Assembly: GCF_000620085.1 (NCBI RefSeq)
Contig: NZ_KK211064.1
Span: forward strand, 62,001 to 126,000
Source of the DNA: Marinobacterium jannaschii DSM 6295
Lineage (GTDB): Bacteria; Pseudomonadota; Gammaproteobacteria; Pseudomonadales; Balneatricaceae
Reading direction: 5' to 3'
Length of the DNA: 64,000 nt
Shown here: piece after piece, positions 23,951 through 64,000 of the stretch
How positions within the stretch are numbered: the first letter of the stretch is position 1
How the letters are laid out: each line of letters begins with the position of its first letter
The notes under the pieces: generated by a model
What the model saw: only the letters and a program-made list of their open reading frames with translations
Databases searched by the model: none
Told to the model about the DNA's origin: nothing
Program-made: the position numbers and the translations under genes

Positions 23951-24037
23951 GCAGATGTGGTGGAATTGGTAGACACGCTAGCTTCAGGTGCTAGTGCTCG
24001 CAAGGGCGTGGGAGTTCGAGTCTCCCCATCTGCACCA
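23951..24037 (+). tRNA. tRNA-Leu (anticodon CAG), copy 1
   Basis: The 87-base gene has acceptor arms GCAGATG and CATCTGC and an encoded ACCA end. The anticodon stem CTAGC/GCTAG closes a 7-base loop TTCAGGT, giving anticodon CAG, which reads CUG. The long variable arm (TGCTCGCAAGGGCG) is the class II feature of leucine tRNAs, and the T arm contains GTTCGAGTC. Confidence 0.97.
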
Positions 24038-24135
24038 AATCTATCGCTTATACTTAGGCATAGATGCGGTGCAACGAAAGTGAAAATTCAGCTTGTAAGA
24101 GCTGCCGGAGGCGACCGGAAAAACGCAACGACAGC

Positions 24136-24222
24136 GCAGATGTGGTGGAATTGGTAGACACGCTAGCTTCAGGTGCTAGTGCTCGCAAGGGCGTGGGAGT
24201 TCGAGTCTCCCCATCTGCACCA
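24136..24222 (+). tRNA. tRNA-Leu (anticodon CAG), copy 2
   Basis: This is identical over all 87 bases to the copy at 23951-24037, including the encoded CCA. A 98-base spacer separates the two, and no separate promoter is obvious there, so they are probably processed from one transcript. Two copies fit heavy use of CUG leucine codons in this GC-rich genome. Confidence 0.97.
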
Positions 24223-47568: not shown

Positions 47569-48378
47569 ATGGTGAATATGATGCAGCCGAAAGAATTCTT
47601 CTCCTCACTCTGGCAGGACTACATCGAGGTAACTCCGCAGGCGGAACAGATCCGCCAGCTGTTCCTGCAGACTGATCCGCAGGTGATCAACGATCACGTC
47701 GCCTTCCGTACCTTCTCCGATACCCCGCTCTGCCTGGCGCAGCTGCAGCCGCTGATTCTGGCGATGGGCTATGAGATACAGGCGGATTACAACTTCGAAG
47801 CCAAGAAACTGCGTGCGATCAGCTTTATCCATCCGGACCCGACGGTGCCGAAGGTGTTTATCTCCGAGCTGGAGCGTCACAAGCTGAGCGAACAGGCGCA
47901 GGCCATCCTGCAGCCTTACTGCGACCAGATCGAAGCAAAAGAGCTGGAACAGAGCGTGTTCTGGTCGGGCCGCCACTGGAATATGCCGAGCTGGGAGCAC
48001 TACCAGACCCTGCTGGAAGAGAGCGAATACGCCGCCTGGCTGCTGGTGATGGGCATCCGTGTCAACCACTTCACCGTCAGCGTCGACCTGCTGGAATCCA
48101 CCGACTGCATCCGCGAGGTGCTGCAACGGGTTGAGGATGCCGGTTATGCCATCAATGAAGCCGGCGGCCGCGTCAAAGGCGTACCGGCCGATCTGCTGGA
48201 GCAGGGCTCCACTATGGCGGATCGCATCGATGTCACCTTTGCCGGTGGCGACAGCCACAGCGTGGCCAGCTGCTTCTACGAGTTTGCCAAGCGTCATGCC
48301 GACAGCGACGGCCAGCTGTACCAGGGCTTTATCGCCGCCAACGCCGATAAGATCTTCGAATCGACCAACGTAAGCTGA
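47569..48378 (+). CDS. DUF1338 family protein (VOC-like metalloenzyme)
   Basis: This 269-residue protein belongs to DUF1338, whose characterised relatives are iron-dependent dioxygenases of the VOC-like fold (D-2-hydroxyglutarate synthase in lysine catabolism). The expected metal histidines are visible in NDHVAFRTFS near residue 40 and RVNHFTVSV near residue 165, with a glutamate expected further on. This protein is shorter than the hydroxyglutarate synthase type, so the substrate may differ. Alternative ATGs lie at 47578 and 47581. A tandem repeat and terminator follow the stop directly. Confidence 0.85.
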   Translation: MVNMMQPKEFFSSLWQDYIEVTPQAEQIRQLFLQTDPQVINDHVAFRTFSDTPLCLAQLQPLILAMGYEIQADYNFEAKKLRAISFIHPDPTVPKVFISELERHKLSEQAQAILQPYCDQIEAKELEQSVFWSGRHWNMPSWEHYQTLLEESEYAAWLLVMGIRVNHFTVSVDLLESTDCIREVLQRVEDAGYAINEAGGRVKGVPADLLEQGSTMADRIDVTFAGGDSHSVASCFYEFAKRHADSDGQLYQGFIAANADKIFESTNVS

Positions 48379-48450: not shown

Positions 48451-49476
48451 CTATTCGCTGCCGGAGAGGCTGCGCTGATGCTGCTGCAGGCGTTCTTCGC
48501 GTGGCGTATGGCCGAAGCAGTTGCGGTAGCAGCGGGCAAAGTAGGAGGTGGAGCTGAAGCCGCAGGCGGTACTGATCTGCAGTACAGGCAGGGTCGATTG
48601 CAGCAGCAGGTGGCGGGCTCTTTCCAGGCGCAGGTTCATATAGTGGCTGGCCGGTGTGGTGTCCAGCTGGTCGCGGAACAGCCGCTCCATCTGGCGAGTG
48701 GAAAGGCCGACCATTTCGCCGATATCCTGACAACTCAGCGGCTCTTCGATATTGGCGCGCATCAGCTCCAGCGCCTTCAGCAGCCGCGGGTGGCGGGTCT
48801 GATGCCGCAGTTTCAGTTCCATCCGCTGTTGTTCATGGGCGGGCCGGATTGCCGGGTGGATGCATTGTTCGGCAATATCCTTGGCCAGCGCCTCGCCATG
48901 TTTCATGGCGATCAGGTAGAGCATCATATCCAGCCCGGCCAGACCGCCGGAGCAGGTAAAGATATTCTGGTCGATCTCATACAGCTCGCCGGTGACATTG
49001 AGATCGGGAAACTGCTCCGCCAGGCTGTCGCGGTTCTCCCAGTGGATGGTGCAGGTGCGGTTGCGTAACAATCCGGCCCGGGCCAGCAGCAGGCTGGCGG
49101 TGGAGGTGGCACCGAGGCTGATGCCCCGCCGCAGCAGGCTGCGCAGCCAGCTGAACAGGGCTTCATCTCCGGCCAGATGGGCATCGATGCCGGACACCAC
49201 AAACAGTGAGCTGAGGTCGGCCACATCATGCACCGCCCGGGTCGGGCATACCGGCACGCCATTGCTGGCAAAGGCCGGCTGGTCGTCGACACAGTAGAAA
49301 TGCCACTGATACAGCTCCCGGCCGCTCATCCGGTTAGCTATGCGCAGCGGTTCCAGCGCGGCAGCGAAGGACATCATCGAGAAGTCGTTGATCAGGAAGA
49401 AGCCGATATGTTCGGGACTGCCGCTATCGGAGGACATAGACGGAGTTAACCTGCTGCGGGCGGAAATGACTCCCAT
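48451..49476 (-). CDS. GlxA family transcriptional regulator (DJ-1-like plus AraC domains)
   Basis: This protein of up to 341 residues has an N-terminal DJ-1/PfpI-like sensor domain (IGFFLINDFSMMSFAAALEPLRIANRMSG; key words MMSFAAALEPLRIAN) and a C-terminal AraC helix-turn-helix (LSCQDIGEMVGLSTRQMERLF; DTTPASHYMNLRL; ISTACGFSSTSYFARCYR). Relatives include GbdR and CdhR, which control glycine betaine and carnitine use. An internal ATG at 49437 is an alternative start. It is the last gene of the transporter-nitrilase-PrpD cluster and probably its regulator. A betaine-like effector is inference. Confidence 0.93.
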   Translation of the reverse strand: MGVISARSRLTPSMSSDSGSPEHIGFFLINDFSMMSFAAALEPLRIANRMSGRELYQWHFYCVDDQPAFASNGVPVCPTRAVHDVADLSSLFVVSGIDAHLAGDEALFSWLRSLLRRGISLGATSTASLLLARAGLLRNRTCTIHWENRDSLAEQFPDLNVTGELYEIDQNIFTCSGGLAGLDMMLYLIAMKHGEALAKDIAEQCIHPAIRPAHEQQRMELKLRHQTRHPRLLKALELMRANIEEPLSCQDIGEMVGLSTRQMERLFRDQLDTTPASHYMNLRLERARHLLLQSTLPVLQISTACGFSSTSYFARCYRNCFGHTPREERLQQHQRSLSGSE

Positions 49477-49577
49477 ACTGTCGGACTCGCGCCGCTCTGG
49501 CTAGCCCGGGCGGCGCGCAGAGTACACTGCGGCCGCAGACAGGACTTAATCCGCCGGCTTTGGGTCCGCCTGGCCTG

Positions 49578-50906
49578 TCAGCTGACGGGCGTGGTCAGCA
49601 GTTGCAGAAAGGCCTGCAGGCCGGCGGCGGGCAGTCGCTCGATCGCCAGGCTCTGGCGCCGAATGCTGTCGACTACAGCTGCCGGCAGGCCGGGTGTGGC
49701 CAGGCTCTGATATTTGCGGACCAGCTCCTGCTCGCTGAGCGGGTTTTCCGGGTTGCCGCGGGCGATACAGGGTGCTGAGGTCAGTTCGCGGCCGTCTTGC
49801 AGCACCAGCCGGGCGTGGGCCCAGCGTTCGGCCGGGAAGCGCTCGTTATAGCGCGTCTCTTCATGACAGATCACCCTGGCACTCAGCGCCTGGCGCTGTT
49901 CACAGAACAGCCCCCCGCCATCCTCGGCAATTGCCCCGGTAGTGATCACGTCATTCAACAGGGCGCTGGCGACGGAAAACGGCAGGCTGTACTGCGCCTG
50001 CTCGGTCGTCTCGGGATGCACCGTATGCAGCCGGATCGCTTCATGGAAACTGTGGATATGGATTTCGCACACTTCTGCCGGATCAGGGCTGTGGCCGGCC
50101 CGTATCTGACGGATCGCTTCCACCGCTGGTTGTGCCCAGCGACACACCGGGTAGGCCTTAAAGTACTGTTCGAGGATATACCAGCGCCGCCCCAGGTCGG
50201 CCCAGATCGGTGCCACTGCCTGATCCGACAGGGTCACTGCCGGTGCCCCGGTAAAGCCCGCTGCCGCCAGCAAGGCGCTGCTGACGCCGCCCAGGGCACC
50301 CCAGCCGGAGCCGTCCTTGAGCATGGTGGGATGGTCGATACAGCGCATCATCTGACTGCGCGGACCATAGAACTCGGCGCTGCCGAGGGCCTCGCGGGTC
50401 TGCTCCGGGCTCAGGCCGTTGAGGCGCGCGACCACCGCCGCGACGCCGATGGCGTTCCAGGCCCCCGAGGTGTGGTAGTCGTCGGCCGTGGCATGCAGGG
50501 CGATCCCGGCACGGGTGGCGATCTCATAGCCCAGCACCAGTGCGGTCAGAAAGGCCTTGCCATCGAGATCCTTACCCTGTGCTGCCGCCAGCAGGCCGGG
50601 CAGTACCGCGACCCCGACATGCCCCTTGGTCAGCACCTGGCCGTCATGGGCATCGATACTGTCGATCAGCGTAGCGCCGAACAGGGCGGCCCCGCAGGCG
50701 CTGGCACGGCGGCGGCTGAACAGCAGCGGCACTTCGCCCGGATACTGGCTGCAGACAAAGTCGGCCATAATCCGGCTGAGCCGGGTAGCGTGTCCGGCGG
50801 CGGCCACTCCGAGCAGGTCGAGCAGGCAGATACCGCCCTGTCGCACCACTTCATCAGGCAGGTCGTCAAAACTCAGGTCGTGAATGAAGTCGATAATCTG
50901 TTGCAT
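49578..50906 (-). CDS. MmgE/PrpD family protein
   Basis: This 442-residue protein belongs to the MmgE/PrpD family, which contains 2-methylcitrate dehydratase, cis-aconitate decarboxylase and iminodisuccinate epimerase. Family marks are CLLDLLGVAAAG near residue 28, SIDAHDGQVLTKGHVG near 83, the YHTSGAWNAIGVAAVVARL block near 145 and EQYFKAYPVCRWAQPAVEAI in the C-terminal half (key words KAYPVCRWAQPA). No prpB or prpC neighbours are present, so a propionate role is unlikely. Lying between a nitrilase-family enzyme and a GlxA-type regulator, it probably acts on the compound imported by the neighbouring ABC transporter. Confidence 0.92.
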   Translation of the reverse strand: MQQIIDFIHDLSFDDLPDEVVRQGGICLLDLLGVAAAGHATRLSRIMADFVCSQYPGEVPLLFSRRRASACGAALFGATLIDSIDAHDGQVLTKGHVGVAVLPGLLAAAQGKDLDGKAFLTALVLGYEIATRAGIALHATADDYHTSGAWNAIGVAAVVARLNGLSPEQTREALGSAEFYGPRSQMMRCIDHPTMLKDGSGWGALGGVSSALLAAAGFTGAPAVTLSDQAVAPIWADLGRRWYILEQYFKAYPVCRWAQPAVEAIRQIRAGHSPDPAEVCEIHIHSFHEAIRLHTVHPETTEQAQYSLPFSVASALLNDVITTGAIAEDGGGLFCEQRQALSARVICHEETRYNERFPAERWAHARLVLQDGRELTSAPCIARGNPENPLSEQELVRKYQSLATPGLPAAVVDSIRRQSLAIERLPAAGLQAFLQLLTTPVS

Positions 50907-51031
50907 AGCTCTGTCGTCTGTTGGGTTTATGGTTGTAAGGCAGCGGCGTTGCGGGCTTTTTCAGGCAGCGCCGGGCTGCCGGGCTCGGACGGCAGGCCAG
51001 CAGGGAACTTGAGCCGGGTATAGCCGGGTAT

Positions 51032-51871
51032 TTAGCCGGACTGATCCAGCAGGTGCCTGATCAGTGGCGTATCGGCATCGCGCAGGGTGGGCAGGTCAAA
51101 CCTTGCCGCGCCAATGTCCGTCAGGTTGAGGCGGGCGCTGATCAGGCTTTCGCCCTCCTCCGCTGCCGCCAGCAACTCGCCGCGCGGACCGAGGATACGG
51201 CTGCCGCCCCAGAAGAAGGCATCGCCTTCCGGGCCATAGCGGTTGGCCATCAGTACCGGGACGCCATAGGTCATGGCGTAGAAGCCGATATTGGTCAGCC
51301 AGTTGCGTTCGTTGGAGAATTCCTCGCTGACGATGGCGGAGGCGGAATTGACCGGTGCCAACAGCAGTTCCGGCTTCTGCAGCATGGCGCAGTGCACCAG
51401 CGCCGGGTTCCACAGGTCGGCGCAGATCAGGGTGGAGGCGCGCCAGCCGGGCTTGATTGCGGTCTGGCTCAGCTGGCGGCCGCGGCTGTACCACTTGCCC
51501 TCCTCCAGCCCGCCGTAGGTGGGCAGGTTCAGCTTGCGATGTACCGCCTGCACCGCGCCGTTATGCAGAATGGCGCAGGCATTGTAGTACTCGCCCGGTG
51601 TTGCCTGTTCGACAAAGCCTGCCACTACACAGAGCTCCGGGGCGATCGCCGCCAGCGCCCGAAGCCGTTCGTCATCCGCCGCCATAGCGACCTGCGGCAC
51701 CTCCCGGCCCAGCTGGTAGCCGGTCAGGGACAGTTCCGGAAACAGCAGCAGTTCGGCGCCCTGCTGCCGGGCCTGGCGAATATAGTCGGCATGCTTGGCA
51801 AGGTTGGCTTCCAGTGCCCGCAGCCCGACATTGATCTGGGCGATGCTGACCTGAAGTTGCGCATTCGGCAT
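51032..51871 (-). CDS. nitrilase superfamily carbon-nitrogen hydrolase
   Basis: This 279-residue enzyme has the Glu-Lys-Cys triad of the family: Glu46 in FPELSLTGY, Lys113 in HRKLNLPTYG and Cys150 in LICADLWNP. It should hydrolyse an amide, carbamoyl or similar C-N bond in the cytoplasm. GAGGT precedes the ATG. The start lies 24 bases after the terminator-like hairpin at 51895-51922, too close for a separate promoter, so it depends on read-through from the transporter genes. The substrate cannot be told; NAD synthetase-linked, omega-amidase and N-carbamoyl types are alternatives, and the context favours a catabolic amidase. Confidence 0.93.
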   Translation of the reverse strand: MPNAQLQVSIAQINVGLRALEANLAKHADYIRQARQQGAELLLFPELSLTGYQLGREVPQVAMAADDERLRALAAIAPELCVVAGFVEQATPGEYYNACAILHNGAVQAVHRKLNLPTYGGLEEGKWYSRGRQLSQTAIKPGWRASTLICADLWNPALVHCAMLQKPELLLAPVNSASAIVSEEFSNERNWLTNIGFYAMTYGVPVLMANRYGPEGDAFFWGGSRILGPRGELLAAAEEGESLISARLNLTDIGAARFDLPTLRDADTPLIRHLLDQSG

Positions 51872-51894
51872 GGTGGCTACCTCTGGCGTGGGTT

Positions 51895-51922
51895 AAAAAG
51901 CCGGACAGCGCTGCCGTCCGGC
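51895..51922 (-). terminator. attenuator between osmolyte binding-protein gene and nitrilase gene
   Basis: On the minus strand GCCGGAC (51922-51916) and GTCCGGC (51906-51900) form a perfect 7-bp GC stem followed by TTTTT (51899-51895), 11 bases after the binding-protein stop. It is strong enough to cut most transcripts, giving more transporter than enzyme. Confidence 0.85.
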
Positions 51923-51933
51923 AGTGTGCGGCC

Positions 51934-52821
51934 TCAGTTCAGGCCCTGTTCGGCGAGGAAGTCGGCGGCAACCTTCTCCACCGATTGCTTCTCGACATCG
52001 ACCCGGGCATTCAGTTTCGACATCAGCTGGCCATCCAGCCGGGCTGACAAGCGGTTCATCTGCTCGGCCAGTTTTGGGTTTGCCGACAGGGTGTCTTCAC
52101 GTACCACCGGGGTCAGGGCGTATTCCGGGAAATACTGCTTGTCGTCTTCCAGAACCTTGAAGTTGAACGCCGGGATACGGCCGTCGGTGGCGAAGACCAG
52201 CGCCACATCCACCTGGTTTTCTTTCAGCGCGGTATAGGTCAGGCCCGAGTCCATGCGCTTGATATCCTTGCGCGGAAACTTGAAGCCGTAGGCTTTCTGC
52301 AGCGGCTTGAGGCCATCCTTGCGGGCATAGAATTCGGCATTCACCGCCAGCACCAGGCCGACTTTATCGTTCACCGCCTGGGCCAGGTCGCTCAGCTTGC
52401 TGATACCGCGTTTGTCGGCGTCATCGCTGCGCATCGCCAGGGCGTAAGTGTTGTTGGCGGCTGACGGGTTCAGCCATACCAGGCCTTTCTTGGCATCCAG
52501 CGCTTTCACCCGGCTGTATACCTGATCGGCCGGCACCTTCTCTTTCACTTTGTTGTAGTTCAGCAGCGAGGTACCAGTGTACTCCCAGTACAGGTCGATC
52601 TGGCCGTTCTCCTGGGCTTTGCGCAGCACCGCACTGCCCATACCGGCGCGGCGGTCGATCTCATAGCCCTTAGTGTCCAGGTACTGGGCGGTGATCTCCG
52701 TCAGCAGCTGTTGTTCGGTAAAGTTCTTGCCGCCAATCACCAGCTCGCTGGCCTGGGCTGACAGGGTGAATGACGCGCTCAGCAGGGTTACTGCAGCCAG
52801 TTGAGACATCTGTTTGATCAT
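51934..52821 (-). CDS. osmolyte/quaternary-amine ABC transporter substrate-binding protein (OpuC/OsmF type)
   Basis: This 295-residue periplasmic protein has a signal peptide (MSQLAAVTLLSASFTLSAQA). The OpuAC-type domain begins ELVIGGKNFTEQQLLTEI, with RRAGMGSAVLRKA, YWEYTGTSL and LALVFATDGRIPAF-like blocks (the real sequence is VALVFATDGRIPAF). This is typical of glycine betaine, choline or carnitine binding proteins. AGGAG lies seven bases before the ATG at 52821, which is preferred to a TTG one codon upstream. It is followed by a terminator-like hairpin. Confidence 0.93.
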   Translation of the reverse strand: MIKQMSQLAAVTLLSASFTLSAQASELVIGGKNFTEQQLLTEITAQYLDTKGYEIDRRAGMGSAVLRKAQENGQIDLYWEYTGTSLLNYNKVKEKVPADQVYSRVKALDAKKGLVWLNPSAANNTYALAMRSDDADKRGISKLSDLAQAVNDKVGLVLAVNAEFYARKDGLKPLQKAYGFKFPRKDIKRMDSGLTYTALKENQVDVALVFATDGRIPAFNFKVLEDDKQYFPEYALTPVVREDTLSANPKLAEQMNRLSARLDGQLMSKLNARVDVEKQSVEKVAADFLAEQGLN

Positions 52822-52890
52822 CAAAGTGCTCCTGTTGTTGTTATTTTCAGCTTGTGTTCTTCAGGCGCAGAGGCCTTGGGTTCGCAGGGT

Positions 52891-53619
52891 TTAGCGCAGC
52901 GGGTTAACGCCTTTGGGTACGATCAGGAAGGCCAGCATGGCGATCAGCAGATCCACCACAATCGCCAGCAGTGCTGTCGGTATCGCCCCGGCCAGCATCA
53001 TCACCGGTTCATCCAGGTCAATGCCGGTAAAGATCAGCTCGCCCAGGCCGCCGCCGCCAATCAGGAAGGCCAGCGGTACGGTGCCGACATTGATTGCCAG
53101 CGCGGTACGGATACCGGCAAACATGACAAACAGCGCGTTGGGTATCTCTACCTGCAGCAGCATCTGGCGGGCGGTCATGCCGATACCGGCCGCGGCCTCC
53201 CTGAGGTGTGCCGGGACTTCCAGTAACCCGGTATAGGTATTGCGGACGATCGGCAGCAGCGAGGCGACACAGAGACCGAAGACCGCCGGCAGGGTACCGA
53301 TGCCGAGCAGGCTCATGGACAGCGCCAGTATCGCCAGGGTGGGAATCGTGGTGCCGATATTCAGCCCCTGCATCGCCGTTTCGGCGATATGTGCCAGCCC
53401 GGGACGGCTGAGCAGCACTCCCAGCGGGATGGCGATCAGGATGGCGATACCGCCGGAGATCGCGACCAGTTCGATATGCTGTCCGGTGAGGTAGACCACG
53501 TCCTCCTGATAGCCGAGCATCTCCTCGATAAAGCCGTTGCTCTGCAACTCGGCACCGATAAGAAACATCAGGATCAGGGCAAGGATATAGCTAGCGCGCT
53601 TAAGGGCCGGGCGTAACAT
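52891..53619 (-). CDS. osmolyte ABC transporter permease (OpuBB-type), first copy downstream of ATPase
   Basis: This 242-residue permease has six hydrophobic segments and the typical block AIPLGVLLSRPGLAHIAE near residue 65 (key words IPLGVLLSRPG) and VRNTYTGLLEVPAHLREAAAGIGM, the EAA loop that contacts the ATPase. GGGAG lies six bases before the ATG at 53619. It pairs with the other permease at 54834-55487 to form the channel. Confidence 0.93.
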   Translation of the reverse strand: MLRPALKRASYILALILMFLIGAELQSNGFIEEMLGYQEDVVYLTGQHIELVAISGGIAILIAIPLGVLLSRPGLAHIAETAMQGLNIGTTIPTLAILALSMSLLGIGTLPAVFGLCVASLLPIVRNTYTGLLEVPAHLREAAAGIGMTARQMLLQVEIPNALFVMFAGIRTALAINVGTVPLAFLIGGGGLGELIFTGIDLDEPVMMLAGAIPTALLAIVVDLLIAMLAFLIVPKGVNPLR

Positions 53620-53633
53620 AGACAACTCCCGGC

Positions 53634-54791
53634 TCAGGCCAGCTTCAGGTTATAGGGTGCGGCCTGGCGACCATCCCGTCGGTAGGTGGCCCCCAGATAA
53701 TGGGTGATGCCGCGCTGGGAGATATGCCCTACCAGCCTGCCGCTGTCGTCGACGCAGGGCATCCAGGTGCTGTCATGGGTAAACATCAGCGAGGCGATCT
53801 TACGCAGGTCATCATTGATGTTTGCCAGCCCCTTGAGTCCGACATAATGTTCGCCGCAATAGCCTTTGGTGGTCTGGGCAACCTGCTTGGAGACAAAGCC
53901 GATCGGCTGCTGTTGCTGGTTGACCAGGGTGATGGCATGGGAGTAGCCATGCTCTTCCATCTGCTGCAGCGCGGTCTCCAGCGAGTCCTGCGGTGTGACG
54001 CAGGGGGCCGGTGATTCCATCACCTGGGCTACGTTTACCAGCCGCAGCCGCTTCAGGGCGCGGTCGTCGCCGACAAAGCTTTCGACAAAGCTGTCTTTCG
54101 GATGGGCCAGCAGGTCGTCCGGGGTGTCGTACTGTACCAGCCGACCATCGCGGAAGATGGCGATGCGGTTAGCCATCTTCACCGCTTCGTCGATATCGTG
54201 GCTGACGAACATAATGGTTTTCTTCAGCTCCTGCTGCATCTTCAGGAATTCATCCTGAATCACCTCGCGGTTGATCGGGTCGATCGCCCCGAAGGGTTCG
54301 TCCATCAGCATCACCGGCGGATCGGCCGCCAGCGCCCGGGCCACGCCGATGCGCTGCTGCTGGCCACCGGACAGCTCTTTCGGATAGCGCTTGAGGAACA
54401 CTGCCGGGTCCAGCGCCACCATCTCCAGCAGTTCTGTGGCACGGGCCTTGTAGCGGTTGACGTCCCAGCCCAGCAGGCGCGGCACGGCGGTGATATTTTC
54501 CTCGATGGTCATATTGGGAAACAGGCCGATCTGCTGGATCACGTAGCCGATATTGCGGCGCAGGTCGACGGTATCGAGACCGCTGGTATCTTCGCCGTTG
54601 ATAAATACCCGGCCGGAGGTGGGCGGGATAATGCGGTTGATCATCTTCAGGGTGGTGGTCTTACCACAGCCGGAGGGGCCCAGCAGGACGCAGATCTCCC
54701 CCTGCGGGATCTCCATCTGGATGTTGTCTGCCGCGGTGACCGGGCCGTTCGGCGTATCGAAAATCTTGGTCAGGTTATCGATTTTTATCAT
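53634..54791 (-). CDS. osmolyte ABC transporter ATP-binding protein with two CBS domains
   Basis: This 385-residue ATPase has Walker A GPSGCGKT at 38-45, signature LSGGQQQR, Walker B VMLMDEPFGAID and switch histidine VSHDIDEA. Two CBS-type segments follow the ATPase part (PCVTPQDSLETALQQM; NINDDLRKIASLM), the arrangement of OpuA/OpuC ATPases that sense ionic strength or nucleotides. It sits between the two permease genes. Confidence 0.95.
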   Translation of the reverse strand: MIKIDNLTKIFDTPNGPVTAADNIQMEIPQGEICVLLGPSGCGKTTTLKMINRIIPPTSGRVFINGEDTSGLDTVDLRRNIGYVIQQIGLFPNMTIEENITAVPRLLGWDVNRYKARATELLEMVALDPAVFLKRYPKELSGGQQQRIGVARALAADPPVMLMDEPFGAIDPINREVIQDEFLKMQQELKKTIMFVSHDIDEAVKMANRIAIFRDGRLVQYDTPDDLLAHPKDSFVESFVGDDRALKRLRLVNVAQVMESPAPCVTPQDSLETALQQMEEHGYSHAITLVNQQQQPIGFVSKQVAQTTKGYCGEHYVGLKGLANINDDLRKIASLMFTHDSTWMPCVDDSGRLVGHISQRGITHYLGATYRRDGRQAAPYNLKLA

Positions 54792-54833
54792 TATTCTTAT
54801 CTCGTCAGTAAATCAGCATCGCCTGTCGGTGTG

Positions 54834-55487
54834 TCAGGCTGTTTCCAGCCCGCGCGGCGTCATGCGTTTCTGCAGCCGCAACAGCGCAAAGTCGGCGATA
54901 ATCGCCAGGATACTTACCGCCAGCGCCCCGGCGATCAGCTGCCGCGGATCACTCTGGGAGATGCCGCGGCTGATCAGCACGCCCAGGCCGCCGGCGCCGA
55001 TATAGGCGGCGATCGCCATAACGCCGATATTCATCACCACCGCGGTACGGACTCCGGCCATAATCACCGGGATAGCCAGCGGAATCTCCACCATCCGCAG
55101 CCGCTGCAGCGGGCTCATGCCGATACCCCGGGCCGCCTCGCGCAGGGCCGGATTAACGTTATTAATCGCAGTGTAAGTATTACGGATGATGGGCAGCTGG
55201 GAGTACAGCAGCACGGCGATCACGGCCGGCAGGTAGCCGATGCCCTGGCCGATGGTCGAGAGCAACGGAATCATCAGGCCGAACAGTGCGATCGACGGGA
55301 TGGTGATAATGATGGAGGCGATATAGAGCACCAGGTTGGCGGCGCGCTCGTTCTGGGTAATGGCGATTCCGATCGGGACTCCGGTCAGGGTTGCCAGTCC
55401 GACCGCCACCGCCACCAGCGAGATATGTTCGACGGTCAGTTTTAGCAGGAGGTCCAGGTTTTGTGCCAGGAAATCGATTATTTCCAC
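54834..55487 (-). CDS. osmolyte ABC transporter permease, first gene of the cluster
   Basis: This 217-residue permease has five to six helices, with TGVPIGIAITQNERAANLVLYIA-like and IIRNTYTAINNVNPALREAARGIGM blocks, the second being the EAA loop. The start is GTG with AGAGG six bases upstream. It begins the leftward transporter-nitrilase-PrpD-regulator cluster; 55488-55756 is its promoter region, shared with the divergent thioesterase. Confidence 0.92.
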   Translation of the reverse strand: MEIIDFLAQNLDLLLKLTVEHISLVAVAVGLATLTGVPIGIAITQNERAANLVLYIASIIITIPSIALFGLMIPLLSTIGQGIGYLPAVIAVLLYSQLPIIRNTYTAINNVNPALREAARGIGMSPLQRLRMVEIPLAIPVIMAGVRTAVVMNIGVMAIAAYIGAGGLGVLISRGISQSDPRQLIAGALAVSILAIIADFALLRLQKRMTPRGLETA

Positions 55488-55756
55488 GCGCTGCCTCTCA
55501 ATTCTGATATTTATTTTTATTAGACAGGCCGGGCGCAGTGGGCTGACGCGACGGCAACCCAGTAACAGTATACCGTTGCCCGAATCGGCCTTAAAAGAAA
55601 TACGACATTTTGTATTAAATTTGCGTCATCGCCTGGGCGGCGGCGAGGGGATTCCGGGTTTATAGTGGCCTCGCCAGGCGATCCTTGCTTAAGCAGCATT
55701 GCGTCCCGGAGGTGTAAGGCATAAGTTGGCACTAAAGAAGAAAACAGGGAGTGGTA

Positions 55757-56251
55757 ATGAATACATCGTTCAGTCAAGAGGGGTACCTGCTGACCGCCTA
55801 CGGCGCCATTGCTGAGGAGGCCTGCGATTACAACGGCCATCTGAATGAGGGACATGCGCTGGTGATGCTGTCAAAGGCGACCGACAGCGTACTGGATGCC
55901 ATCCGGCTGGATGCGACCGGGCGTGAGCAACTGAACTTCAGTGCTTTTACGGTACAGAATACCCTCTACTATCTGGCCGAAGGCCAGCTGGGGCAGGAAG
56001 TCGAAGCCTGGAGCCGCCTGCTGACCTTTGATGAAAAGCGCCTGCGGCTGTTTCACCAGCTGCGGGATATAATTACCGGCGAAGTGCTGGTGGAGCTGGA
56101 AACCCTGCTGCTGGGGGTGGATATGAACAGCCGCCGGGCGGCCTGCTGGCCGGCGCCGGTATCGGCTGCGCTGGAACAGCTCAAAGTGCGGCAACAGCGT
56201 CTGCCTCAGTCTGAGAATGTCGGCCGGGCGATTTGCAAACCGGTGATATGA
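55757..56251 (+). CDS. thioesterase-like protein (4HBT hot-dog fold)
   Basis: This 164-residue protein begins with EACDYNGHLNEGHALVMLSKATDS, the hot-dog thioesterase start with the DYNGHLN motif holding the catalytic aspartate. It resembles 4-hydroxybenzoyl-CoA-type acyl-CoA thioesterases, including betainyl-CoA thioesterase of carnitine breakdown in my recollection. The ATG at 55757 follows AGGGAG. It diverges from the osmolyte transporter cluster, so a shared role in using a quaternary amine is possible but only inferred. Confidence 0.8.
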   Translation: MNTSFSQEGYLLTAYGAIAEEACDYNGHLNEGHALVMLSKATDSVLDAIRLDATGREQLNFSAFTVQNTLYYLAEGQLGQEVEAWSRLLTFDEKRLRLFHQLRDIITGEVLVELETLLLGVDMNSRRAACWPAPVSAALEQLKVRQQRLPQSENVGRAICKPVI

Positions 56252-61748: not shown

Positions 61749-62996
61749 GTGATAAGTGGCACAACGCAGGATGACGCTGGACAGGGGCATCAGTACCTGA
61801 TTGCCCGCCAGCCGATTGTTGATCGTGAGTTACGACTTGTTGGCTATGAGTTACTCTACCGCCGTATGGAAGACCAGCCCCATGCGGTCACCGGCCATAT
61901 GGCAACCGCCCAGGTGTTATCCACCAGCCTCAGTGAGGCCAGCCTGAAGGAGCTGACGGGCAACAGCACGGCCTTTATCAATATGACCCGGGAAGCGATC
62001 CTGAATATGGATCAGCTGTCACTGCCGAAAGAGAAGGTGGTGTTTGAGATCCTCGAGCATGTCGAGATCGATCTGCAGCTGCGCGCCAAGATCGAAGAGC
62101 TGGTCGCCGCCGGCTACCGCTTCGCCCTCGACGACTTTAACCTGGACGGACTGCATAACGAACTGGTCGACATCGCCTATGTGGTGAAAGTGGATGTGCT
62201 GGAACTGGGGCGCGAGGCGATCCGCGAGCACGTCGAACGGCTGCGGCAGTTTCCGGTGGTGCTGATCGCCGAGAAGGTGGAATCCTGGGAGGAGTACGAA
62301 TACTGCAAATCCCTCGGCTTCGATCTGTTTCAGGGCTACTTTTTTGCCAAACCCCAGCTGATCAGTGGCCGCAGTGTCTGCCACAACCGCGCCACCACCT
62401 TCCGTCTGGTTGCCCGCCTGAACGACCCCGATATCGAATTCGATGAACTTGAAGCGCTGGTCAGTCAGGACCCGGGGCTGAGCTATAAGCTGTTCCGCTA
62501 TGTGAACTCGGCGCTGGTTGCCGGCAGCCGTACCTTCAGCAACCTGCGCCAGGTGCTGGTGCTGCTGGGGATTATCCGCCTGCGGGCGATCGCCACCATG
62601 TTTGCCATGTGCCGGATGGAGGCGACGCCGCTGGCCCTGGTCCGCACCATGCTACAGCGCGCCCAGCTGTGCCGGCTGATTGCCGAACAGCAGGGCAGGG
62701 AAGACCCGGAGGACTACTTTATTGTCGGTATGTTCTCGCTGCTGGACGCCCTGATGGACTGCTCGATCGAAGAGGCGCTGCAGGAACTGCCATTGCCGCC
62801 GGAACAGGTGGCCGCGATCGTTGATATGGCCGGGCCTCAGGGCGAGATCCTGAGCTGCAGCATCGGCCTGCAACAGCAGAGCTGTGATCAGTGTGAGGAG
62901 TGCATTGCCGAGGGCGATAATATGCTGTTACTGCTGAACGAGGCGACCCGCTGGGCACTGCAGACCAGCCGCATGCTGGAAGAGGATATCGGCTAG
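61749..62996 (+). CDS. EAL-HDOD signalling protein (YuxH-like)
   Basis: This 415-residue protein joins an N-terminal EAL domain (YLIARQPIVDRELRLVGYELLYR, key words RQPIVD and GYELLYR; FEILEHVE; FALDDFNLDG) to a C-terminal HDOD domain (FDELEALVSQDPGLSYKLFRYVNSA region). The EAL signature is ELL, and it is uncertain whether it hydrolyses c-di-GMP or only binds it. The C-terminus has CDQCEEC, a possible metal site. The start is GTG with AAGGAA eight bases upstream. It converges with a GlxA-type regulator, leaving 21 bases. Confidence 0.92.
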   Translation: MISGTTQDDAGQGHQYLIARQPIVDRELRLVGYELLYRRMEDQPHAVTGHMATAQVLSTSLSEASLKELTGNSTAFINMTREAILNMDQLSLPKEKVVFEILEHVEIDLQLRAKIEELVAAGYRFALDDFNLDGLHNELVDIAYVVKVDVLELGREAIREHVERLRQFPVVLIAEKVESWEEYEYCKSLGFDLFQGYFFAKPQLISGRSVCHNRATTFRLVARLNDPDIEFDELEALVSQDPGLSYKLFRYVNSALVAGSRTFSNLRQVLVLLGIIRLRAIATMFAMCRMEATPLALVRTMLQRAQLCRLIAEQQGREDPEDYFIVGMFSLLDALMDCSIEEALQELPLPPEQVAAIVDMAGPQGEILSCSIGLQQQSCDQCEECIAEGDNMLLLLNEATRWALQTSRMLEEDIG

Positions 62997-63017: not shown

Positions 63018-64000
63018 TCAGCCGGAACGTACTGCGCGGGAATGACCAAAGCGTGGCGCCAGATCCCGGCTTTCCTGAACCTGCTTCAGGCCACGGCGCT
63101 CTTCACGCGGCGAGATGCCGTAGTGATTGCGGTAGGCGGTGCTGAAATAGCTGGCACTGGCAAAACCGGTCAGGCGACCCACTTCCAGAATCGGATGGTC
63201 ACTGTTGCGCAGCAGGTGACGCGCCTTCTCCAGCCGCAGCTCGAGATAGTGCTGTGATGGCACTGTCTGCAGATGCTTCTTAAACAGCCGCTCCAGATGA
63301 CGGCGCGATACACCGGCCAGCTGGGCCAGGTCATCGCTGCTCAGCGGCTCTTCCAGATTGGCCTCCATCAGCTCCACCGCTTCCACCAGTTTCGGCTGAC
63401 TGGTGCCCAGGCGCGAGCGCAGCGGCACCCGCTGCGGCTCTTCGCTGGAACGCATCCGCTCGCAGACAAACTGCTCTGAGATCTGCGCCGCCAGGTTCAT
63501 ATCGTGCTGCTGGCCGATCAGAAACAGCATCATATCCATCGCCGCCGTACCGCCGCCGCAGGTGAAGCGGTTGCCGTCGATCTCATACAGGTTGTTGCTC
63601 AGGCGGGTGGTGGGAAACTCCTCACGCATGCTTTCCAGGTCACCCCAGTGGATGGTGGCCTTATGCCCCTCCAGCAGACCGGCGCAGGCCATCAGGTAGG
63701 AGCCGGTACCGATACCGCCAATAGTCTGTTTCTGGCGCTTACGCAGCCAGGCGATCACGGCCTCGTTGCCGGTGCGGGCAACCGGACTGGCCCCGCAGAC
63801 AAACAGGGCATCCAGCGGCGGCAGGTTATCGAAACTGTGGTCTACCTGCACCGGCACGCCACCGCTGCTGGTCACCGCTTCGCCGTCACGGCTGACGGTG
63901 AGGGTCTCATAGAGGGTTTCACTGGCGACGATATTAGCCATGCGCAGTGGCTCCAGCGCCGTGGAGAATCCAATCAGTGAGAAATTAGGCACCAGCACAA
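63018..64000 (-). CDS. GlxA family transcriptional regulator, 5' end outside window
   Basis: The visible 327 codons hold most of a DJ-1-like sensor domain (FSLIGFSTALEPLRMANIVAS; key words ALEPLRMAN) and a complete AraC helix-turn-helix (LSSDDLAQLAGVSRRHLERLF; SQHYLELRLEKARHLL; RLTGFASASYFSTAYR). The frame stays open to the window end, so the N-terminus is missing. It is related to the regulator at 48451-49476 and belongs to the group containing GbdR and CdhR. Targets are not visible in the window. Confidence 0.92.
   Translation of the reverse strand, partial: VLVPNFSLIGFSTALEPLRMANIVASETLYETLTVSRDGEAVTSSGGVPVQVDHSFDNLPPLDALFVCGASPVARTGNEAVIAWLRKRQKQTIGGIGTGSYLMACAGLLEGHKATIHWGDLESMREEFPTTRLSNNLYEIDGNRFTCGGGTAAMDMMLFLIGQQHDMNLAAQISEQFVCERMRSSEEPQRVPLRSRLGTSQPKLVEAVELMEANLEEPLSSDDLAQLAGVSRRHLERLFKKHLQTVPSQHYLELRLEKARHLLRNSDHPILEVGRLTGFASASYFSTAYRNHYGISPREERRGLKQVQESRDLAPRFGHSRAVRSG

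Follow-up and report, generated by a model that had tools for sequence, protein, structure and literature searches.

A recurring importer, amidase and PrpD-like gene cluster of Marinobacterium jannaschii with a possible role in amino acid betaine catabolism

The described systems closest to the locus studied here are clusters for the breakdown of quaternary amines. In Pseudomonas, GlxA-type (GATR) regulators belong to the gene sets for carnitine (caiX-cdh with cdhR) and glycine betaine (gbcAB with gbdR), and clusters of the HpbD type combine a betaine importer with a Rieske demethylase and oxidases; degradation of hydroxyproline betaine additionally requires an epimerase. We analysed a seven-gene cluster at positions 48451-55487 of a 64,000-nucleotide stretch (the window; positions 62,001 to 126,000 of contig NZ_KK211064.1) of the Marinobacterium jannaschii DSM 6295 genome (5.18 Mb, 39 contigs). 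The cluster encodes an OsmF-type ATP-binding cassette (ABC) importer, a carbon-nitrogen hydrolase (Nit), an MmgE/PrpD-family enzyme and a GlxA-type regulator. By sequence comparison it is conserved in many genomes, appears to be uncharacterised and is a variant of the clusters for quaternary-amine catabolism; a new regulon is predicted for it. The best explanation of the whole, to which we give slightly less than an even chance, is a GlxA-type (GATR)-regulated cassette that takes up and degrades a betaine, in the sense of an N-methylated amino acid, bearing a glutamine-like carboxamide.

All seven open reading frames named in a first-pass annotation of the sequence were found on the minus strand, and Pfam agreed with the domains proposed for them. 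Permease A (54837-55487; BPD_transp_1), the first gene of the operon, matches its Marinobacterium arenosum counterpart (locus L010) at 91%. It is followed by an ABC ATPase (53637-54791; ABC_tran and CBS, with one CBS stretch reported), permease B (52894-53625; BPD_transp_1), an OsmF/OpuC-type substrate-binding protein (51937-52824; OpuAC, 225.8 bits), the amidase Nit (51035-51871; CN_hydrolase), an MmgE/PrpD-family enzyme of a distinct subfamily that we propose to be an epimerase (49581-50906; MmgE_PrpD_N and MmgE_PrpD_C) and the GlxA-type regulator (48454-49476; DJ-1_PfpI and an AraC helix-turn-helix (HTH) domain). Neighbouring genes are separated by 8-125 bp. The seven-gene cluster, as observed, is real. 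Only the ATPase passes any NCBIfam cut-off (338.6 bits against 326.6 for TIGR01186, the proV subfamily), and that model describes a broad subfamily; judged by their individual scores, the seven proteins are none of the characterised proteins covered by NCBIfam.

The neighbourhood search in other genomes that had been recommended for this cluster was carried out by searching genome contigs with the PrpD-like protein. This yielded 341 relatives, of which the best 80 were kept as loci, and genes were counted by tblastn with seed proteins within ~10 kb of the PrpD relative. The controls were 20 stretches, mostly from the genomes of an 'extra' set (25 PrpD loci, the majority of them more distant). 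Genes at the loci were called by codon usage, with approximate starts and some misses (e.g. the binding protein in locus L064 and the ATPase in L072); for several accessory genes (k27-k29, k33-k35 and part of the DAO and DapA-like genes) the names come from reading the sequence, without a family search. Relatives of Nit (57/80), the binding protein (58/80) and GlxA (30/80) lay near PrpD, as did a CocE/NonD hydrolase (19/80), an amidohydrolase-2 protein (10/80) and the alpha/beta hydrolase k9 (9/80), versus 0/20 controls for each of the six. The hosts include Marinobacterium, Nitrincola, Zobellella, Vibrio, many Halomonadaceae, Alcaligenaceae, Pandoraea, Roseovarius, Ancylobacter, Bosea, Neorhizobium and Kiloniella. 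In the 'extra' set, Nit was found at 2 loci, the binding protein at 4, GlxA at 8 and any demethylation gene at 9; because the first three are rare there, the PrpD subfamily is wider than the cluster. The neighbourhood is not due to chance, since importer, amidase and PrpD-like protein recur together across Gamma-, Beta- and Alphaproteobacteria. The view that the genes form a catabolic cluster is supported. Were the importer a general osmolyte system that happens to stand beside an independent amidase/PrpD pair, one might expect loci such as those of three Kiloniella (L076, L078, L084) and a Rhodospirillales metagenome-assembled genome (MAG; L068), where nit-prpD occurs without an OsmF importer in the stretch examined; but the gene content is shared in 46 of the 51 loci with called importer genes, from several classes, and one predicted regulatory site lies ahead of the whole leftward run, and we regard such independence as very improbable.

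The binding protein is of the OpuC/ProX type, having an OpuAC domain together with aromatic-box and anion contacts that map onto ProX. Among 69 aligned binding proteins the contacts are largely conserved (K33 in 54, Y82 in 67, T85 in 54, Y127 in 67 and R168 in 67), F211 (59/69) occupies the place of ProX Y190, and ProX Y214 could not be mapped. The score against the OsmF equivalog was 197.4 bits (cut-off 400). Conservation of the aromatic and anion-contact residues agrees with the earlier suggestion of a quaternary-amine-type importer, and the substrate is probably a betaine, which the OsmF-type ABC system would import.

The amidase retains the Glu-Lys-Cys triad reported for it, as E46, K113 and C150, each present in 68/68 aligned Nit sequences. 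Among solved structures, a profile search placed the NAD synthetase glutaminase domain nearest to it, and a fold comparison N-carbamoylputrescine amidohydrolase; Nit scored 89.3 bits against the N-carbamoylputrescine amidase AguB equivalog (cut-off 410.25). Of the 80 loci, 51 have called OsmF-type importer genes as well as PrpD, and every one of these 51 has an amidase-type gene: Nit in 46, a distant C-N hydrolase in 4 and a class-I glutamine amidotransferase in 1. Four Ancylobacter loci carry, after a binding-protein gene, a Nit-cluster gene whose product is ~30% identical to the window Nit, and the one of these that was checked contains CN_hydrolase (168 bits). At the Pontibacterium granulatum locus (L017:8288-9115), a class-I glutamine amidotransferase/C26-type gene replaces the nitrilase gene between those for the binding protein and PrpD; its product scored 59.9 bits for PF00117 and 88.7 bits for PRK09065 (cut-off 205), and a search of the P. 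granulatum genome (G001) for a Nit relative found none at E <= 1e-20. The use of three amidase types in one cluster suggests hydrolysis of a primary, glutamine-like carboxamide. Together with the occurrence of an amidase gene in 51/51 loci, this strengthens the proposal of amide cleavage, and on these sequence grounds we consider an amide-hydrolysis step somewhat more plausible than a pathway lacking it. Considering its family, its invariant triad and the replacement of its gene by another amidase type, Nit would hydrolyse a primary amide to give an N-methylated amino-dicarboxylate.

Both Pfam domains of the PrpD-like enzyme score above the gathering threshold (139.7 and 96.2 bits versus 32.1). 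True propionate metabolism was rejected, as the protein scored only 19.1 bits against the NCBIfam model for PrpD (2-methylcitrate dehydratase; cut-off 950); this places the enzyme outside that pathway, and the ten window proteins scanned with Pfam included no propionate gene, as had been stated. An alignment of 106 rows, three of which repeat others, defined subfamily motifs (DAHDG...KGH, DYHTSGAW, KDGSGWGA and CRWAQP), with D82, D85, H87, H96, Y144, H145, K250, C255 and W257 invariant in 106/106 rows and Q259 present in 96; at position 197 the nearer rows shown have Lys, and several distant rows have Arg or His. In a quick tree (103 rows) the window protein groups with Marinobacterium rows and more widely with Halomonadaceae rows (SH-aLRT 96, 49-row set). 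Cis-aconitate decarboxylation was likewise rejected, because CRWAQP lies in the segment of the decarboxylase active-site histidine (H277 of the human enzyme), and that histidine is not conserved. A profile built from 20 rows matched Bacillus subtilis IRG1 at 126 bits, iminodisuccinate epimerase at 102, cis-aconitate decarboxylase at 94 or less and methylcitrate dehydratases at 39 or less. The predicted structure (pLDDT 93) matched IRG1 and the decarboxylases about as well as it did the epimerase (TM-score by query length 0.82-0.85), and the fold by itself thus gives no choice of reaction.

The epimerase reading draws on genomic context. Paralogs 38-40% identical to the window protein were found at four loci (L112, L113, L133 and L134), and three of them (L113, L133 and L134, from genome G006 and a further two genomes in the same order) have as neighbours a betaine-type importer and genes of the Rieske, DAO, DapA-like and aldehyde dehydrogenase kinds, some named by reading. 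This is the gene set expected for degradation of hydroxyproline betaine, with its required epimerase; the PrpD-like paralogs in these hydroxyproline-betaine-like sets may represent a non-homologous betaine epimerase. M. jannaschii itself has a similar set on another contig (L116; G000:C14:5001-25000), in which two SDR-like genes take the place that the PrpD-like gene has in L113. Because of this context, the enzyme would most likely abstract the alpha-proton of the N-methylated amino-dicarboxylate as an epimerase, like iminodisuccinate epimerase. Of the lyase, isomerase or epimerase chemistry suggested by the first-pass annotation, epimerisation is favoured, but we assign the protein as an epimerase only tentatively, with rather more doubt than confidence. 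A betaine-class substrate could also be acted on by a lyase or (de)hydratase, for example one that removes trimethylamine or water from an acid formed from the betaine. The best-known family members are dehydratases and decarboxylases, the model and profile match cis-aconitate decarboxylases well, and at two loci (L025, where this was checked, and L035) prpD and nit are separated by an SDR gene, as expected if a hydroxyl were made and then oxidised. Against such chemistry, the motifs differ from those of the decarboxylase (CRWAQP in the histidine segment, KGH in place of ATH), the methylcitrate dehydratases are the most distant by profile, and the three paralogs occupy a setting in which comparison with HpbD-type clusters leads one to expect an epimerase. 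We consider a lyase or (de)hydratase rather unlikely.

The regulator contains DJ-1/PfpI and AraC HTH domains and appears to have a direct-repeat site with a TCG core and 21-bp period, features of the GATR class; its score against the GbdR equivalog (339.5 bits, cut-off 480) marks it as a paralog. The predicted site (55587-55628, minus strand) is a tandem direct repeat of TGACGCA and TGTCGTA, 21 bp apart, located ~100 bp before permease A. In ten gammaproteobacterial clusters, which served as training rows, permease A is preceded by two TGTCGNAWWT-like half-sites with this 21-bp spacing; in one (L010) the best pairs with 20- and 21-bp spacing tied at three mismatches and the 21-bp pair was used, and the upstream regions of two others (L018 and L020) are nearly the same, so that these do not count as independent. 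Outside the training rows, sites with at most two mismatches precede permease A in 3/42 cases, k9 in 5/9, the MttB-like gene k39 in 1/5 and other genes of the 80 loci in 0/675; with at most three mismatches the counts are 5/42, 7/9, 1/5 and 4/675. When the spacing was altered (at most three mismatches; permease A, k9, PrpD and k39), 18, 19, 20 and 22 bp gave no sites, 23 bp gave two before k9 and 24 bp one before permease A. A weight-matrix scan of the 80 loci returned 26 matches above 17 bits (permease A 10, k9 7, k39 1, elsewhere 8), versus 2 in 387 kb of control DNA.

A pattern scan of the M. jannaschii genome gave six matches, of which the single best, with one mismatch, lies before the importer operon; the other five have three mismatches each, one preceding a GbcA-like gene and four lacking a visible link or falling outside called genes. 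In Vibrio diabolicus the site precedes a run of k9, k8 and ydiJ with gaps of ~60 bp; at locus L013 it precedes an MttB-like gene, with neither Nit nor importer in the stretch examined; and in Neorhizobium (L067) permease A follows a site with 1 mismatch and the Rieske gene one with 4. A passage on the CdhR footprint describes GGTCGC half-sites with a 15-bp spacer and calls them very similar to the GbdR, SouR and ArgR sites (PMC5806209), so that the CdhR site, as given there, has the same 21-bp period as the predicted one. Domains and site alike are consistent with the GbdR/CdhR type previously ascribed to the regulator, and the GlxA protein would switch the operon on through the two TGTCG half-sites.

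Following epimerisation, the product would be demethylated, perhaps by a GbcAB-like pair in M. jannaschii and by MttB-like or Rieske and SoxAB-like proteins in some relatives, which variously carry MttB-like, Rieske, SoxAB-like, hydrolase and ydiJ genes. MttB-like genes were found near PrpD in 10/80 loci (0/20 controls), GbcA-like Rieske genes in 7/80 (1/20) and FAD-dependent N-methyl-amino-acid dehydrogenase-like genes in 15/80 (3/20). The claim that no usual glycine-betaine demethylation gene adjoins the cluster holds inside the window, but a GbcAB-like Rieske oxygenase and reductase pair starts 945 bp past the window end (G000:C1:126945-129339; window coordinates 64945-67339). The pair is 62% and 51% identical to Ancylobacter copies sitting in this cluster type, and its GbcA-like protein scored 531.1 bits against the GbcA equivalog (cut-off 670), versus 702 for the genome's other copy, on contig C4. 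A HalD-like gene adjoins the pair, as does its own GlxA gene. This second GlxA-type regulator (63021-64000, continuing past the window end, minus strand) is 44% identical to the first, scores 380.6 bits against the GbdR model (cut-off 480) and has at most a putative link to the cluster. As a widely conserved partner the pair was rejected, no relative above 50% identity being found in the other 36 related genomes; its connection with the cluster in M. jannaschii is tentative, the indications being distance, a weak predicted site and the 62% identity to the Ancylobacter copy.

Alternatively, in some gammaproteobacterial relatives the hydrolases k9 and k8 together with YdiJ would lead to D-2-hydroxyglutarate and 2-oxoglutarate. 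The ydiJ gene lies near PrpD in 4/80 loci from four genera (0/20 controls), and its products all score above 1350 bits, the cut-off for D-2-hydroxyglutarate dehydrogenase (Zobellella 1577.9, Vibrio 1620, Billgrantia 1495.4, a Thioclava MAG 1450.5); in Zobellella it comes immediately after an amidohydrolase-2 domain that reads in a single frame with a GntR/FCD domain. Its presence beside the cluster suggests, for the lineages concerned, a 2-substituted dicarboxylate with five carbons. A search of the M. jannaschii genome found no good relative of k9 (best E 4.1e-4) and a 52% identical relative of k8 on another contig, and here the GbcAB-like pair may take the demethylation route instead.

Glutamine betaine or glutamate betaine fits best as the substrate, because this would suit the amide, a PrpD family of dicarboxylate type, the link to D-2-hydroxyglutarate and the large number of halophiles among the hosts, yet we regard this identification as doubtful. 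Glutamate betaine is described as a compatible solute of hypersaline cyanobacteria in passages of two papers (PMC4390839, PMC7824335), and glutamine betaine is reported from cereals and bread in passages of two others (PMC5920414, PMC5890289) and appears in a table of a mass-spectrometry review (PMC12706699). Searches of open-licence PMC text, several of them on single parts of the set, showed no paper on bacterial breakdown of either compound or on such a combination of genes, in keeping with the earlier remark that no characterised pathway has it. Other cationic or betaine-like solutes, such as carnitine or gamma-butyrobetaine amide and trimethyllysine-derived or pyridinium betaines, are rather improbable substrates, with the D-2-hydroxyglutarate genes then forming a lineage-specific side branch. 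They would explain three genes between nit and prpD at six loci (L054, L055, L063, L072, L073 and L074), which by inspection of their sequences, with no search against families, we read as genes for an acyl-CoA dehydrogenase, an acyl-CoA ligase and an enoyl-CoA hydratase, as in carnitine-type pathways. They would also suit the AspH-like (Pfam 22.5 bits, just under the cut-off of 22.6), threonine-aldolase-like and BADH-like genes found near PrpD in various combinations (L013, L053, L068 and L089), a set that recalls the route from trimethyllysine to butyrobetaine. Set against these solutes are the ydiJ genes above the equivalog cut-off beside the cluster in four genera, and the replacement of Nit by a glutamine-amidotransferase-type protein, which points to a glutamine-like amide. 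Homarine, like trimethyllysine, was considered no more than a rival; literature searches on it gave no usable gene set.

Several observations weigh against the catabolism of glutamine or glutamate betaine under a single regulator. Displacement of trimethylamine with inversion from an epimerised L-betaine would give L-, not D-2-hydroxyglutarate; the stereochemistry thus does not fit these betaines simply, genes in other lineages suggest other betaines, and accessory sets vary so much by lineage that substrates may vary too. The PrpD profile and model fit IRG1 and the decarboxylases at least as closely as they fit iminodisuccinate epimerase. Demethylation genes of any kind occur within 10 kb at 18/80 loci versus 3/20 controls, a weak difference by itself, and most loci are without one; 76/80 lack ydiJ. 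As for the regulon, 39 of 42 non-training rows, including most Halomonadaceae, have no site with at most two mismatches before permease A, and no GlxA gene was matched near the cluster in most Halomonadaceae loci. Eight of the 26 matrix matches have no visible link, and control DNA gave two more. The six matches in the M. jannaschii genome compare with nine for a backwards-read control, so only the one before the importer operon is secure; that before the GbcA-like gene, with three mismatches, is not, and the GbcAB-like pair has its own GlxA. Substrate and reaction are both proposals from sequence and gene context.

Other features of the region were considered. A thioesterase gene (55751-56248; carnitine-dehydrogenase-like), divergent from permease A, was rejected as a member, having no tblastn match in the 80 loci. 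An HglS-family (2-oxoadipate dioxygenase/decarboxylase) gene, common among related genomes, adjoins the regulator (47569-48375). HglS produces D-2-hydroxyglutarate. As a pathway part it was rejected: it had no tblastn match in the 80 loci, its relatives occur in 19/37 related genomes with or without the cluster, and in the P. granulatum genome it and the cluster lie on different contigs; it looks unrelated. A terminator-like hairpin with a T run lies between the binding-protein and nitrilase genes (51900-51922), in a scan where such sites were no more numerous than expected, and a sigma-70 scan found no promoter-like site. Genes for a DddP-like M24 protein and a HalD-like oxygenase recur near the cluster at six loci (L021, L028, L033, L042, L052 and L064). 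Elsewhere in the window, two tRNA-Leu (CAG) genes stand side by side (23951-24222).

The fullest proposal, which we think unlikely to hold in its entirety, is that this would be the first recognised catabolic pathway for glutamine/glutamate betaine: import, deamidation of glutamine betaine to glutamate betaine by Nit (or by the class-I amidotransferase-type protein in P. granulatum), conversion by a new MmgE/PrpD betaine-epimerase subfamily and then demethylation or the k9/k8/YdiJ route, under one GlxA-type regulon. If true, it would add a catabolic route for amino acid betaines that, in the literature passages cited, appear only as compatible solutes or food components, assign a role to a large MmgE/PrpD subfamily that so far has no name, and provide a regulon, both site and genes, directly testable in culturable halophiles.

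Compared with known systems, Nit shares the C-N hydrolase fold and triad with N-carbamoylputrescine amidohydrolase and the NAD synthetase glutaminase domain, but it is only ~25% identical to them and far under the equivalog cut-offs. The PrpD-like enzyme belongs to the same Pfam family as the 2-methylcitrate dehydratases PrpD/MmgE, but differs in its equivalog score and in the lack of propionate genes among the proteins scanned. Its model shares the fold of iminodisuccinate epimerase (2hp0, 2hp3; TM-score by query length 0.84-0.85) with an alignable catalytic region, although identity in the fold match is only 18% and the window protein has CRWAQP and KGHxG in the corresponding segments. Unlike hydroxyproline- and proline-betaine clusters of the HpbD type, the cluster has an amidase and is without DapA-like or aldehyde dehydrogenase genes; it would have in common with them a betaine importer, a Rieske demethylase, oxidases and a chiral amino acid betaine, and PrpD-like paralogs occur in such sets. 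From the Pseudomonas carnitine and glycine betaine clusters it differs in its enzymes and in a regulator below the GbdR cut-off, but as far as the passages on those systems go, it shares with them a GlxA/AraC-type regulator and a predicted direct-repeat site of 21-bp period beside catabolic genes.

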